The notes below the pieces were generated by a model. That model saw nothing but the letters and a program-made list of their open reading frames with translations. It ran no database searches and was not told the origin of the DNA. From Thermovibrio sp. (GTDB taxonomy: Bacteria; Aquificota; Aquificia; Desulfurobacteriales; Desulfurobacteriaceae), in contig WFYG01000041.1 in the NCBI GenBank assembly GCA_015490195.1, positions 1 through 50,810 on the forward strand: DNA of 50,810 nt. The letters are read 5' to 3'. Shown piece after piece: positions 15,093 through 19,691 of the stretch. How positions within the stretch are numbered: the stretch's first letter is position 1; each line of letters opens with the position of its first letter. The position numbers were made by a program, and so were the translations under genes.

Positions 15093-18000
15093 TTAGTGCT
15101 TCCTCTTCTTTCTAAAGCCAAAGAGTCCCAGAAGTCCAGAGAGAAGAACTCCAAGGTTCAGAAGGCCGCTTCCGGCAGGTGTAGCAGGAGCAACGGAACA
15201 TCCACCTCCACCGCCACCTGTAACAGTTGTAGTTGTGGTTGTAGGCGTAGTTGCAGCTTCTCCGAGAACAACAGTGATAGGAGTTTCAGCCCTTGTAACA
15301 GCCTTCGTGCAGGGGTAGTTAACAACGAATACACCATCCTTGTAGGTAGGTTTACAGGTAATAGTCTCTCCGTTAACTGTGATGTAAGCAACAGCTTTAT
15401 CCGGGTCAACCAAACCATCAACATTAAACTCTACAGTAAAGCTCTCCTTATCTGTTGTTAGCTCAACTCCAACAACTGCCTTCGTAAGGTTGGTCGTGGA
15501 AACAATCTTCAGAAGCTCTTGAGGCGTAAGAGCTGTAGAAATAACCGCATCTTGAGCCTTAACATAAATCGGAGACTCCTTACCATCAACAACAACTGTT
15601 GCGGTCATCTGGGTTCCATCGTTGTTCTCAACGTTAATATCGGAAGGAACAACAACTTCAGTTCCTAACTTCCTCATGAGTGAGAAAGCAAGCTCTCCCT
15701 CTCCCGGCACCTCTTCAGCCATAGCTGCGGTATTAATTGTAAGAACACCTTCTACCGGATCGTAGGCTGCCCATCCCTTCAGAATCGCATCCTTAACAGA
15801 GATGGAAGCCGGCTGGAACTGTGCCTTATCAACCTCGTAGTAAACATTGCTGCCTTTAGAAACTCTAACCTTATGTATCTTAGCGTAGTTGATGTAGAGA
15901 TCTGCAGGATCTGCAACCTTAAGGTCTGCGAGTTTAAAGTCCATCTTGAGGATGTACTCGGAAGGAATAATTGGAGTAAAGATAGCAACAAGGTCTGACG
16001 TTCCTGCAGAGAGTATCTCGTCTGCAAGGTGCTCAAATCCTAAGAGCTCCGTCATTTCGTTCTTCAGCCTATAGACGAGAGCTCTCCTCGGAACTTCATC
16101 GTTCTCAAGGGCTTCTGTTTCAACTTCTGTTTCAACTCCTTCAATCTTCATCTTCCAGGTAGATTCTTTGCCGGGAAGGGCAAATGCGATACCTTCTATT
16201 CCGGAGCTCTCAACGGGAATCGGAACAAGGTGCCTGTCAATGTCTATTCCGTTTGTAAGAGCATTAACAAGGATGTCTCCCGCAGTTGTATACATAACCT
16301 TAATGTTTTTCTCCTGGCCGGCAACCTTAATTGTCATAGTTCCGTAAACCGGGTTGCCGTTCTCATCTTCAGGAGAGTTGAAGAAGACCCTTACAGCATT
16401 CTTGTAAGCCTCTGTTGGAATTGCAGAAGGAACGGTGACGATTTCTCTACCGAGACCAAAGAACTTAATGTGGCCGTTTGAATCTTTCTTAATCAAAGAA
16501 CTGAGAGTGCTGCTGCTCTGAATGTCAGACATATTGGCTTCAGGAAGTCTTCCGTTCTTAGCATCGTGGCAAACTTCACAGTTGAGTGTTTCACCGTTAA
16601 CCGTTGCACCTGCACCAAGGGCGTACTCTTTGGGAAGAACGCCGTGGTCTATGCTAAAGGGAGCTGTCCAGATGTAGAAGACAGGGTCAGGATTGTGGAC
16701 TCCCTCTTTCTTAAGAACATCTATGAGAGCACTTCTCATTGCTTCATACTCGGCATTTGTATCTATCTCCGGCAGAAGATCTCCGTTGTCGTCACAGATC
16801 CAGTCTCCTTTTATAGTCTTAACACAAACCTTTCCGTTATGGATGTAGTAAGCAGGAACGTTCTTTCCGGCATAGTTAGATTTAACTTCACCATCTAAAG
16901 CGGCGGCGATTTCACGGGTGTAGAGAACTTTTCCTGTTGACTTGTCATACCAGGTTACGAGGGTAAGCGGATCCGCAAGCCTGTACATGAACTTCTGACC
17001 GCCGGGAGTATCTGGCCTGAAGCCGTTGTTGATGATAACCGGCGCCCATGCCCATGGGAAAGAAATGTCTGGAACATCCCATATACCGAAGTTTTTATTT
17101 TCAAGCCTTAAAGCAGCCTGCCTTGGGTCAAAGTCTGCCTGGTAGATTGGAACAACTATATCCTTGCCGTTGTCGGTTCTGGCTATACAGAAGGGCTGAG
17201 GAGCTCCATACCCACCAATTGGCATAAACGGTCCAAATCCGGGTATAAACATGTTCTCTGGAAGCTTTTGAACTGTTTCATTAGCAAGATCATATCCAAG
17301 AATCCTATTGTCAAAGTTGTAGGAGTATCCAAGAACATCATAGAAGGTTCTGAAAGTCCAGTGGGTTTTAAACGGAATATGGCAAACTTCGCAGGAAATC
17401 TTATCCATGTGAATAGCAGCATTCCCTTCCGGGCCAAAAGCACTCCTGTGAACTTCGGCAGCCAACTGTCTTGAACCGCCAAAGTGACAGTCTAAACAGG
17501 TCTTAAGAGACGGGTTGTAGTCTAAGGACTGATCCCAGTGGCCACCCCAGTCGTTTCCTTTCAGGAAATCGTGGTGGATAGGATGGTACTGCTTCTCTTC
17601 CGGAGATAACGTTCCCTCTCCGTGGCAGGAGAGACATGTTAAACCGGCACCATCTTTACTGTCAAAGTGAACGTCATAACCAATTGGAATATCGTCATTT
17701 ATGGAGAGAACAGACTTTGCTGTAATCATCTTCTTATAAGCTGCATCAAATCCTTGAGACTGAAGGGTTTGCTGAAGTTCTGTCGGTTCAAGGTTTTCTC
17801 CGTTATCACTTCCTCTGTGAATATCGTAGGAAAATACATCTCCCCTCTTAACTATCTCAGCAGCAAGGCCTAAAGTTCCTTTTCTTGTAACCCAGGCGTA
17901 TGTATCGCTTCCATCTGGAAGTTTTCCATCTTTGTAGGGAATTGCCATGTGGCAGTAGGAACAGACGTAACCCCAGTCTCTATTAGCATCTGAGCCTTCA

Positions 18001-19691
18001 GCAGGTGTTGTCATCTTTGGATAGGGATAGCTTGCATCTCCAAGTTTCTCAGGAACAGAGTAGTTGTAATTTTCTGGAGGAACTTCTGTTGAAGGTGTAT
18101 CTTTATCTCCAACTCTGTTCTCAAGAATGGGAAGATCAACTTCTCCTTTAGAGTTGAACTCGTCCTTCTCATAGTAAACTTCCGGTTTCCAGACGCCGTC
18201 TTCCTTAACAAAGCGGACATAGGCAAGAGGAACGCCGTCACCATCTGTATCAACGCCCATTAAGTCGGCCGTTGAGATGTATTTGAAGAAGAATCCAGCA
18301 AAAGTTCTATAAACAACATCCCCATTATCATCGTGGAACGTTGCAGCACCGCCGTTTACGTAAACATCTCCGCCATCTTTATCTGCTGTAGATGCAGGGT
18401 GCTCAAAGTAGGCCACCCTTGCAACTTCCCTTGTTGCACCGTTGGCGTTGTTGGGATAGATGAAGAACTTTGACCAGGTTCCATTGTTGTTCTTAATAGC
18501 GTTCAGCTGGTCATCTGAAAGGCCGTAGAGGGTTTTGAGAACAGAAAGTGGAACGGAGTTGTAGTAGGCAGAGTCAACTTTTGCAACCGTTTTATAGATA
18601 GGATTACCGTTTTGATCTTTTCCTACTTCTATTTTTTCACCAACTTTTGGAGGAATTCCAAGAGATAGAACGATAGTTTCACCGTCTGAGGAAATTCCCC
18701 TAAAGACCATAACTCTCGGGTTTGAAGGCATTATGGGTTGCTGAACGTAGCCGTTAATTTCAGTTTTTATTTTTGAATTAGCATCTGCCTTTGAGTGGCA
18801 CATGAAACAGTCTGTATCATTTACACCGGAACGGGCAAAATTGAAGAGCCCAGGCTTTCCTATGTAACCTGCTCCAACTTCGTAGTCAGAGTATCCAAAC
18901 AGGTCTCCATCAAAGGGGATAAAAGAGTTTATCTGAGCAAGGATCTGGTCATCACGAATAAACCAATCCTTAGTTTTAAGCTCATTGAATAAATTCTCTC
19001 CGAGCCTTTCCTTTAAAACTTCATCTAAAGGCTTGTTTTCCCTTCCAAATTCAGCAGCACCACCGCCTGCGTGACATGAGTTACAGGTGATGTTGTGGGT
19101 TGGAGTTCCCATGTCAAAGTTGAAACCTTTGTAGGCAGAAGGGTCTGCAGGGTTGATTCCGTCAACTGCTCCATCTGGAACTGCAGGATCTTGAAGTGGT
19201 TTCTTAGCCGCCAACTGGCGGTAGGAAGGTGGTCACCAGCCCCCGTAGTGGGACTTGGAGCGGAAGTATCTCATCTTGAGAACAACGTTTGTAACGAAGT
19301 CCTTGGCTCCCGTATCATCCCCGTAGGTTTTCCTGTTGTCCATCCATCCCATGTCGTGGAGACCAATAGCTCCGTGGTGAGAAGCTCTGATATCTGTGAT
19401 GATGTTCTCATGACACTGGCCGCAAGTCTTTTCAAAGCTTATGGGAGTTCCTTTGTAAAGGGTTACATCGTTGCCGTCTTTGTCTTTTACAGTGATAGTG
19501 TCTGGAGTTGTGGTTGTATCAAATTGGCTTTTAAAGCTATCTGGGTTGTCAATTACGTTTTTCTCAACGTTTCCGTAGATGTCAATGAGCTTTACAGACG
19601 GGTGCTGTGCCAGACCCTGAGATGATAAAAGTGCAGACATTATAAAGCCTGTCGTCAGGGAGAGGCTACTCCTCTTCCACTTCCTTCCCAT
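15093..19691 (-). CDS. Secreted octahaem c-type cytochrome, probable selenoprotein (in-frame TGA; ExtKL-like)
   Basis: Read through one in-frame TGA at 19235-19233, this is a 1532-residue protein. Residues 1-28 form a signal peptide (MGRKWKRSSLSLTTGFIMSA...). CXXCH haem motifs occur at about residues 90, 203, 295, 575, 685, 731, 766 and 1037 (CGQCH, CNSCH, CFMCH, CSYCH, CLSCH, CLDCH, CEVCH, CEVCH). The TGA codes residue 153 in the context HYGGW-U-PPSYRQLA. It is in the same frame as both flanking parts, and a bSECIS-like hairpin follows at the right distance. The C-terminal third has no haem sites and ends in a Thr-rich linker, GGGGGGCSV, a hydrophobic helix and FRKKRKH, a CTERM-type surface-sorting signal. 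From memory, the family resembles the (seleno)protein ExtKL cytochromes of Geobacter. A role in extracellular or periplasmic electron transfer is inferred. Without recoding, only a 152-residue monohaem fragment would be made. Confidence 0.8.
19208..19221 (-). promoter_or_regulatory. Candidate bacterial SECIS hairpin after the in-frame TGA
   Basis: On the minus strand CCGCC-AGTT-GGCGG is a perfect five-base-pair GC stem with a four-base loop. The loop starts 17 nucleotides after the TGA and has G as its second base. This meets the published bacterial SECIS rules (stem just downstream, a G in the first two loop positions, loop 16-37 nucleotides from UGA). It is inside the coding region, as bacterial SECIS elements are. 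It needs SelB and tRNA-Sec, neither of which is in the window. Confidence 0.65.

Follow-up and report, generated by a model that had tools for sequence, protein, structure and literature searches.

A Thermovibrio octahaem c-type cytochrome gene with an in-frame TGA that is almost certainly read as selenocysteine

The ExtKL protein of Geobacter is a periplasmic pentahaem protein in which a TGA parts the haem portion from a small C-terminal piece (PMC6148476, PMC5877670). In octahaem tetrathionate reductase (OTR), the second haem is catalytic and is ligated by a conserved lysine (PMC11024163). A 2026 review counts among the selenoprotein families both ExtKL (NF040886) and a TIGR04315 octahaem, the latter solely on the strength of its GenBank annotation (PMC13188914). 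Here we describe a gene of Thermovibrio sp., of the hot-vent family Desulfurobacteriaceae (assembly GCA_015490195.1, contig WFYG01000041.1) that encodes an octahaem c-type cytochrome and carries one in-frame TGA, which is almost certainly translated as selenocysteine (Sec). The window, i.e., the whole stretch of DNA that was analysed, has 50,810 nucleotides (nt) and is contig 41 of a 1.68-Mb genome that is 99.8% complete. Overall, the observations are best explained, with good confidence, by a secreted and probably surface-attached Sec octahaem cytochrome of an OTR-like kind. Text searches of the literature, which did not extend to subscription papers and preprints, turned up no account of this family, and the protein is as yet outside every curated protein family.

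In the open reading frame (ORF) list of the window, a 152-residue N-terminal ORF (19233-19691) has one CXXCH motif and a signal-peptide-like start, MGRKWKRSSLSLTTGFIMSALLSSQGLAQ, and a 1373-residue downstream ORF (15093-19214) has seven CXXCH motifs and a TTG start. The first-pass annotation, made from the sequence alone, had placed both in one frame, split by a single TGA and six sense codons, and had doubted the start of the downstream piece; translation of 15093-19691 shows exactly this. The frame is interrupted solely by the TGA at codon 153 (19233-19235), and the TTG, six sense codons later, is not credible as a start because it is codon 160, an internal leucine lying within a hairpin. 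The region 15096-19691 on the minus strand is a single 1532-codon octahaem cytochrome gene with one in-frame TGA. The eight CXXCH motifs of the joined 1532-residue protein begin at residues 90, 203, 295, 577, 686, 732, 767, and 1038, and the Sec position lies between haems 1 and 2, with one haem before it and seven after it. The features of the gene are the following.

15093..19691, minus strand: complete gene read through the TGA, 1532-residue octahaem c-type cytochrome with one Sec, stop codon TAA at 15093-15095 (from the ORFs and orthologues of identical architecture)
19608..19691, minus strand: signal-peptide-like N-terminus, residues 1-28 (from the sequence; start conserved in orthologues)
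19410..19424, minus strand: haem 1, CGQCH, residues 90-94 (from translation)
19233..19235, minus strand: TGA, almost certainly Sec codon 153, in GGW[U]PPSYRQLA (from translation, orthologues, and homologue alignment)
19208..19221, minus strand: upper stem-loop of the bacterial Sec insertion sequence (bSECIS), CCGCC-AGUU-GGCGG, loop starting 16 nt past the UGA, invariant core CGCCAGTTGGCG at 19209-19220 (from codon conservation, folding, and published criteria)
19071..19085, minus strand: haem 2, CNSCH followed by AGGG, residues 203-207, the proposed catalytic haem (from translation and homologue alignment)
18795..18809, minus strand: haem 3, CFMCH, residues 295-299 (from translation)
17949..17963, minus strand: haem 4, CSYCH, residues 577-581 (from translation)
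17847..17849, minus strand: Lys615 in VKRGD, aligned with Lys153 (VKHGD) of OTR, the haem-2 ligand there (PMC11024163; from hhalign and homologue alignment)
17622..17636, minus strand: haem 5, CLSCH, residues 686-690 (from translation)
17484..17498, minus strand: haem 6, CLDCH, residues 732-736 (from translation)
17379..17393, minus strand: haem 7, CEVCH, residues 767-771 (from translation)
16566..16580, minus strand: haem 8, CEVCH, residues 1038-1042 (from translation)
15096..15233, minus strand: sorting-like C-terminal tail, GGGGGGCS, a hydrophobic stretch, and RKKRKH (IPTL-CTERM at 17.2 bits, below the cut-off of 20.5; similar tails in other Desulfurobacteriaceae families)

The TGA has been conserved over long distances. 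The closest public orthologues are found in Desulfurobacteriaceae, in "Thermovibrio sp." WFNZ01000001.1 (92%) and in JALTBO010000112.1 (96% over the core). In 101 genomes, 14 orthologues were identified, the window gene among them (64-90% identity); every one has a single TGA, always at this position. Two further families are paralogous to the window gene and have a TGA at the homologous motif, [WL][U]PP[SA]YRQLA: a second family in the same organisms, ~37-45% identical (13 loci; own copy G000:C8), and a third of ~820 residues (9 loci). Because the codon is kept in all three families, its conservation is far beyond chance. A wider scan of 84,980 genomes, using a query alignment with the TGA column left open, detected a TGA in the same motif beyond Desulfurobacteriaceae: in Calditrichota (one genome), in numerous genomes of Deltaproteobacteria/Desulfobulbus/Thermodesulfobacteriota, and in L146, a Desulfobulbaceae protein that is more distant. 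This TGA is shared by over 50 distinct sequences, which come from several phyla. In 14 homologues from Bacteroidota, Ignavibacteria, Acidobacteriota, Planctomycetota, Spirochaetota, Sumerlaeota, and others, the column holds Cys; two homologues have Asp and two have Ser.

Profile searches of the window's genome identified selB (439 bits), selA (605 bits), tRNA-Sec (81.7 bits, anticodon tca), and selD (376 bits), the four genes that the first-pass annotation had named as a check on recoding. The selD gene (L048, G000:C43) itself encodes a Sec protein, as its motif SG[U]GAK contains an in-frame TGA. An altered genetic code was considered and rejected, since TGA is the ordinary stop of 8 of the 30 long ORFs in the window. 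Outside Desulfurobacteriaceae, all 16 tested genomes with the Sec form have selB; 15 of these are above the cut-off, and in the Calditrichota genome the gene is split into pieces at contig edges that score just below it. The presence of selB does not strictly tell Sec genomes from Cys genomes: the relation holds in one direction only, as 7 of the 14 Cys-form genomes are also positive above the cut-off, the other 7 having none above it.

The published constraints on a bSECIS are a loop of 3-9 nt, a stem of 4-16 bp, a G in the first two loop positions, a distance of 16-37 nt from the UGA, and a minimum free energy <= -7.5 (PMC13188914). The GC-rich hairpin with loop AGTT that had been pointed out in 19200-19240 lies at 19208-19221 and falls within all of these limits, with a 4-nt AGUU loop having G at position 2, a 5-bp upper stem, a UGA-to-loop distance of 16 nt, and -10.6 kcal/mol. 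By minimum free energy alone it would not stand out, ranking 63rd of 1520 positions in the gene; codon conservation does single it out. Among 13 orthologues, just 47 of the 610 degenerate columns with an invariant amino acid also have an invariant codon, and three or more of these stand in a row only once in the gene, at Y R Q L A (codons 157-161), four codons past the UGA. The twelve bases CGCCAGTTGGCG are invariant in 53 distinct sequences of all families, with adjacent codons varying on both sides, and the window's genome has just two copies of them, both located 12 nt past the TGA of a Sec octahaem gene. The next base pair beyond them is mostly C-G; it is broken (C-C) in the third family and is U-A in L146, which is a compensatory change. 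The Cys homologues L102 and L107 have the same RQLA residues in different codons. The Cys form L103, close to L146 and from a Thermodesulfobacteriota metagenome-assembled genome, has the Cys codon TGT and keeps the exact 18-nt hairpin of L146, TTTCGCCAGTTGGCGAAA, a probable relict SECIS. With TGA conservation, Sec/Cys exchange, the Sec machinery, and the hairpin all pointing the same way, the proposal of Sec recoding is strongly supported. The computational checks that the first-pass annotation had proposed, on the homologue column, the sel genes, and the SECIS, all favour it.

The relationship to OTR has been detected by profile methods. The window protein gives partial, weak matches to multihaem families in NCBIfam and Pfam, the best in NCBIfam being TIGR04315 (OTR) at 30.2 bits against a curated cut-off of 375, and a direct sequence search of the PDB with the protein gave no match. 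A profile of compact relatives matches OTR (PDB 1SP3) at E=1.7e-11 in hmmsearch, and profile E-values to OTR reach 1e-19. In hhalign, the comparison with the OTR alignment has a probability of 99.2-99.9, the global mode pairs all eight haems of the compact relatives in order, and Lys615 (VKRGD) falls on Lys153 (VKHGD; numbering after 1SP3). AlphaFold models were made of the window core (mean pLDDT, the predicted local distance difference test, 67.6) and of a compact Cys homologue (58.7), and OTR is the top, though weak, Foldseek match for both. Since the profile, hhalign, and Foldseek matches all point to OTR, the family is a distant, enlarged branch of OTR-like octahaems, outside TIGR04315 by the curated criterion.

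In 1SP3, Cys64 (INNFCVAI) also stands between haems 1 and 2, at what we take to be the active site. In 46 genomes of a related class, that of genome G105, an in-frame TGA is found exactly at Cys64 in all five OTRs above the cut-off and in one partial gene (loci L151-L156), within NNF[U]V..S..CRCTSCHAGYGWKD. These genes have a strong SECIS hairpin of their own, CTGGTGC-AGGT-GCACCAG, with its loop at 24 nt from the TGA. Sec, or alternatively Cys, is therefore used in the segment between haems 1 and 2 by two branches of the superfamily. In a maximum-likelihood tree built from 36 rows, the window family groups with its sister family, the Calditrichota form, and most deltaproteobacterial Sec forms in one branch with support 100/100, while L146 and the 820-residue family fall elsewhere. 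Branches in this tree are long, and L146, L063, and the third family are placed with uncertainty. As the tree requires three changes of the Sec label, Sec has probably been gained or lost more than once.

The homologue alignment suggests what the Sec residue may do. Lys615, the haem-2 CXXCH, and Sec/Cys are all present in 41 of the 43 aligned rows and are all absent in the two Chloroflexi (Chloroflexota) rows, L113 and L117, which have Asp in place of Sec/Cys. This joint loss suggests that the three belong to one OTR-like active site. L113 is in addition fused to a cytochrome b561-like membrane domain. In the mechanism that we propose, SelB and tRNA-Sec would decode UGA codon 153 as Sec, directed by the hairpin 16 nt downstream. 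Sec153 would then stand on the distal side of a putatively lysine-ligated (Lys615) catalytic haem 2, where it may attack or bind the substrate as a nucleophile or ligand, and the other seven haems would supply haem 2 with electrons. Catalysis at haem 2 with electron-feeding haems is also how we understand OTR and its active-site Cys64 to work. By this analogy, a role of Sec153 at the Lys615-ligated haem 2, acting on the substrate, is somewhat favoured.

Several observations weigh against this reading. L113 and L117 probably lost the three features in a single evolutionary event, which makes the pattern a hint more than a statistical proof. In a fourth Desulfurobacteriaceae family (L063, L064), the Sec column is occupied by Ser and haem 2 is retained, which shows that haem 2 can exist in the absence of Sec or Cys. 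Sec153 and Cys64 of OTR share the interval between haems 1 and 2 and are not aligned column to column in hhalign; the distance from Sec/Cys to haem 2 is about 30-50 residues (~50 in the window protein) vs 10-13 in OTR. The Sec site is of low confidence in both AlphaFold models and is not resolved by them. Finally, the window gene sits between alaS and a gene for a PpiC-type isomerase lipoprotein, without porin or electron-transfer neighbours. The second Sec octahaem gene of the genome is likewise alone.

The neighbourhood differs in Deltaproteobacteria, where the Sec octahaem gene of three loci (L080, 4362-6774; L083, 144-2465; L089, 4401-6750) comes after genes for a barrel-like protein and a 12-haem cytochrome. 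The barrel-like protein has 465-513 residues, no family match, and an end resembling that of outer-membrane barrels, and the layout is a possible, unnamed porin-cytochrome conduit. A glycine-rich C-terminal tail of the type GGGGCS-hydrophobic-basic is common to several Desulfurobacteriaceae cytochrome families (L009-L021, L030, L053-L060, L063), below the known CTERM cut-offs, and may be an undescribed sorting signal. From the conduit layout and the sorting-like tail, we give delivery to the cell surface or outer membrane an even chance. In Thermovibrio ammonificans, of the same bacterial family, the routes of sulfur and nitrite reduction have been described as unclear (PMC5441870), and for this reason sulfur species or nitrite are reasonable candidate substrates. 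A sulfur species with S-S or S-O bonds (sulfur/polysulfide, tetrathionate) or nitrite/hydroxylamine would fit both the kinship and the hosts. The geometry of the active site, the surface location, and the substrate are all points that we infer.

A different role for the residue has been considered, in which Sec is real but not catalytic at haem 2 and forms a selenylsulfide or redox switch, an axial haem ligand, or a metal- or selenium-binding site, the protein only conducting electrons to extracellular acceptors, e.g., minerals. The beta-barrel-like protein and 12-haem cytochrome adjoining the deltaproteobacterial relatives, the sorting-like tail, and the poorly defined Sec site of the structure models are what such a conductor could show. 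On the other hand, Sec/Cys has been lost together with haem 2 and its lysine, in OTR proper a Cys or Sec stands near haem 2, in the stretch between haems 1 and 2, and ligation by Lys instead of His marks the enzyme haem in OTR (PMC11024163). We therefore regard pure electron conduction as unlikely and retain Sec153 as a putative catalytic residue at haem 2.

Downstream hairpins can stimulate readthrough, and the TGA could in principle be read as Trp or another standard residue, or act mainly as a selenium-dependent stop that gives a short mono-haem product. No computed result favours this, and the non-recoded homologues have Cys and not Trp, selA, selB, selC, and selD are present, and the hairpin lies within the bSECIS limits, which makes such a reading very improbable. 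An ordinary nonsense mutation, a pseudogene, or a sequencing error splitting the cytochrome, the first of which had been entertained in the first-pass annotation, can be set aside as having a negligible chance. Genuine decay does occur in the same genome: L062 (G000:C19:10000-16500, minus strand), a Ser-type octahaem of the fourth family, is otherwise open and has two in-frame TAG codons (the first for TGG) where the orthologue L063 has Trp and Gln, and these look like recent nonsense mutations, in contrast to the conserved TGA. The TGA of the window gene is shared across orthologues, paralogues, and other phyla with fully open flanks, is followed by synonymously frozen codons, and is replaced by Cys in other homologues. 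That the protein is the ExtKL selenocytochrome, a resemblance suggested in the first-pass annotation, is just as negligible. Each of the two is a multihaem cytochrome containing one Sec (PMC5877670); NF040886, however, has no match at E<=10 to the protein or in the genome, the haem number and Sec position differ (PMC6148476), the window locus, flanked by the isomerase lipoprotein gene and alaS, has none of the ext gene cluster (rhodanese, porin ExtI, ExtM-S), and the detectable kinship is with OTR.

With Sec recoding as the preferred reading, the case has consequences for annotation, since gene callers cut such genes in two, so that annotation of these very large cytochromes of vent bacteria easily goes wrong and hides a likely catalytic residue. 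The family is conserved across phyla with Cys counterparts, and Sec/Cys, haem 2, and the lysine constitute a single, directly testable site. It is also a concrete candidate for sulfur/nitrite reduction of the Thermovibrio ammonificans type, the routes of which have been called unclear (PMC5441870). A bolder and rather doubtful extension would be a class of extracellular selenoenzymes, in which surface-displayed Sec octahaem reductases would underlie the as yet unexplained reduction of sulfur/polysulfide (or nitrite) in Desulfurobacteriaceae and, when combined with a porin and a 12-haem cytochrome, in vent Deltaproteobacteria; the whole OTR-like superfamily would then share Sec at a lysine-ligated haem as its catalytic device, with Sec and Cys having been exchanged several times.

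Among the described systems, ExtKL (Geobacter sulfurreducens GSU2937-2936, NF040886) is, like the window protein, a multihaem c-type cytochrome with one predicted Sec (PMC5877670), and it is encoded beside a porin, as some relatives of the window gene also seem to be. It is not detectably homologous and has five haems with Sec after them, whereas the window protein has eight with Sec between haems 1 and 2. MmcA, the heptahaem cytochrome of methanogenesis (TIGR04314), has an OTR-related core and receives weak profile matches from relatives of the window protein. It has lost haem 2 and its lysine (PMC11024163), as have the Chloroflexi homologues, and no Sec has been reported for it. Going by its GenBank annotation, the Sec-containing "tetrathionate reductase family octaheme c-type cytochrome" WP_331457571.1 (PMC13188914) is also an octahaem selenocytochrome of this superfamily; it is assigned to TIGR04315, a model for which the window protein scores far below the cut-off. 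The closest likeness is to OTR itself (Shewanella oneidensis SO4144, PDB 1SP3, TIGR04315), with eight haems in the same order, an aligned haem-2 lysine, and Cys or Sec between haems 1 and 2. The window protein differs in its size (1532 vs ~440 residues), its large insertions, and its sorting-like tail, and the SECIS loop is AGUU in the window family vs AGGU in the Sec-OTRs of the G105 class.

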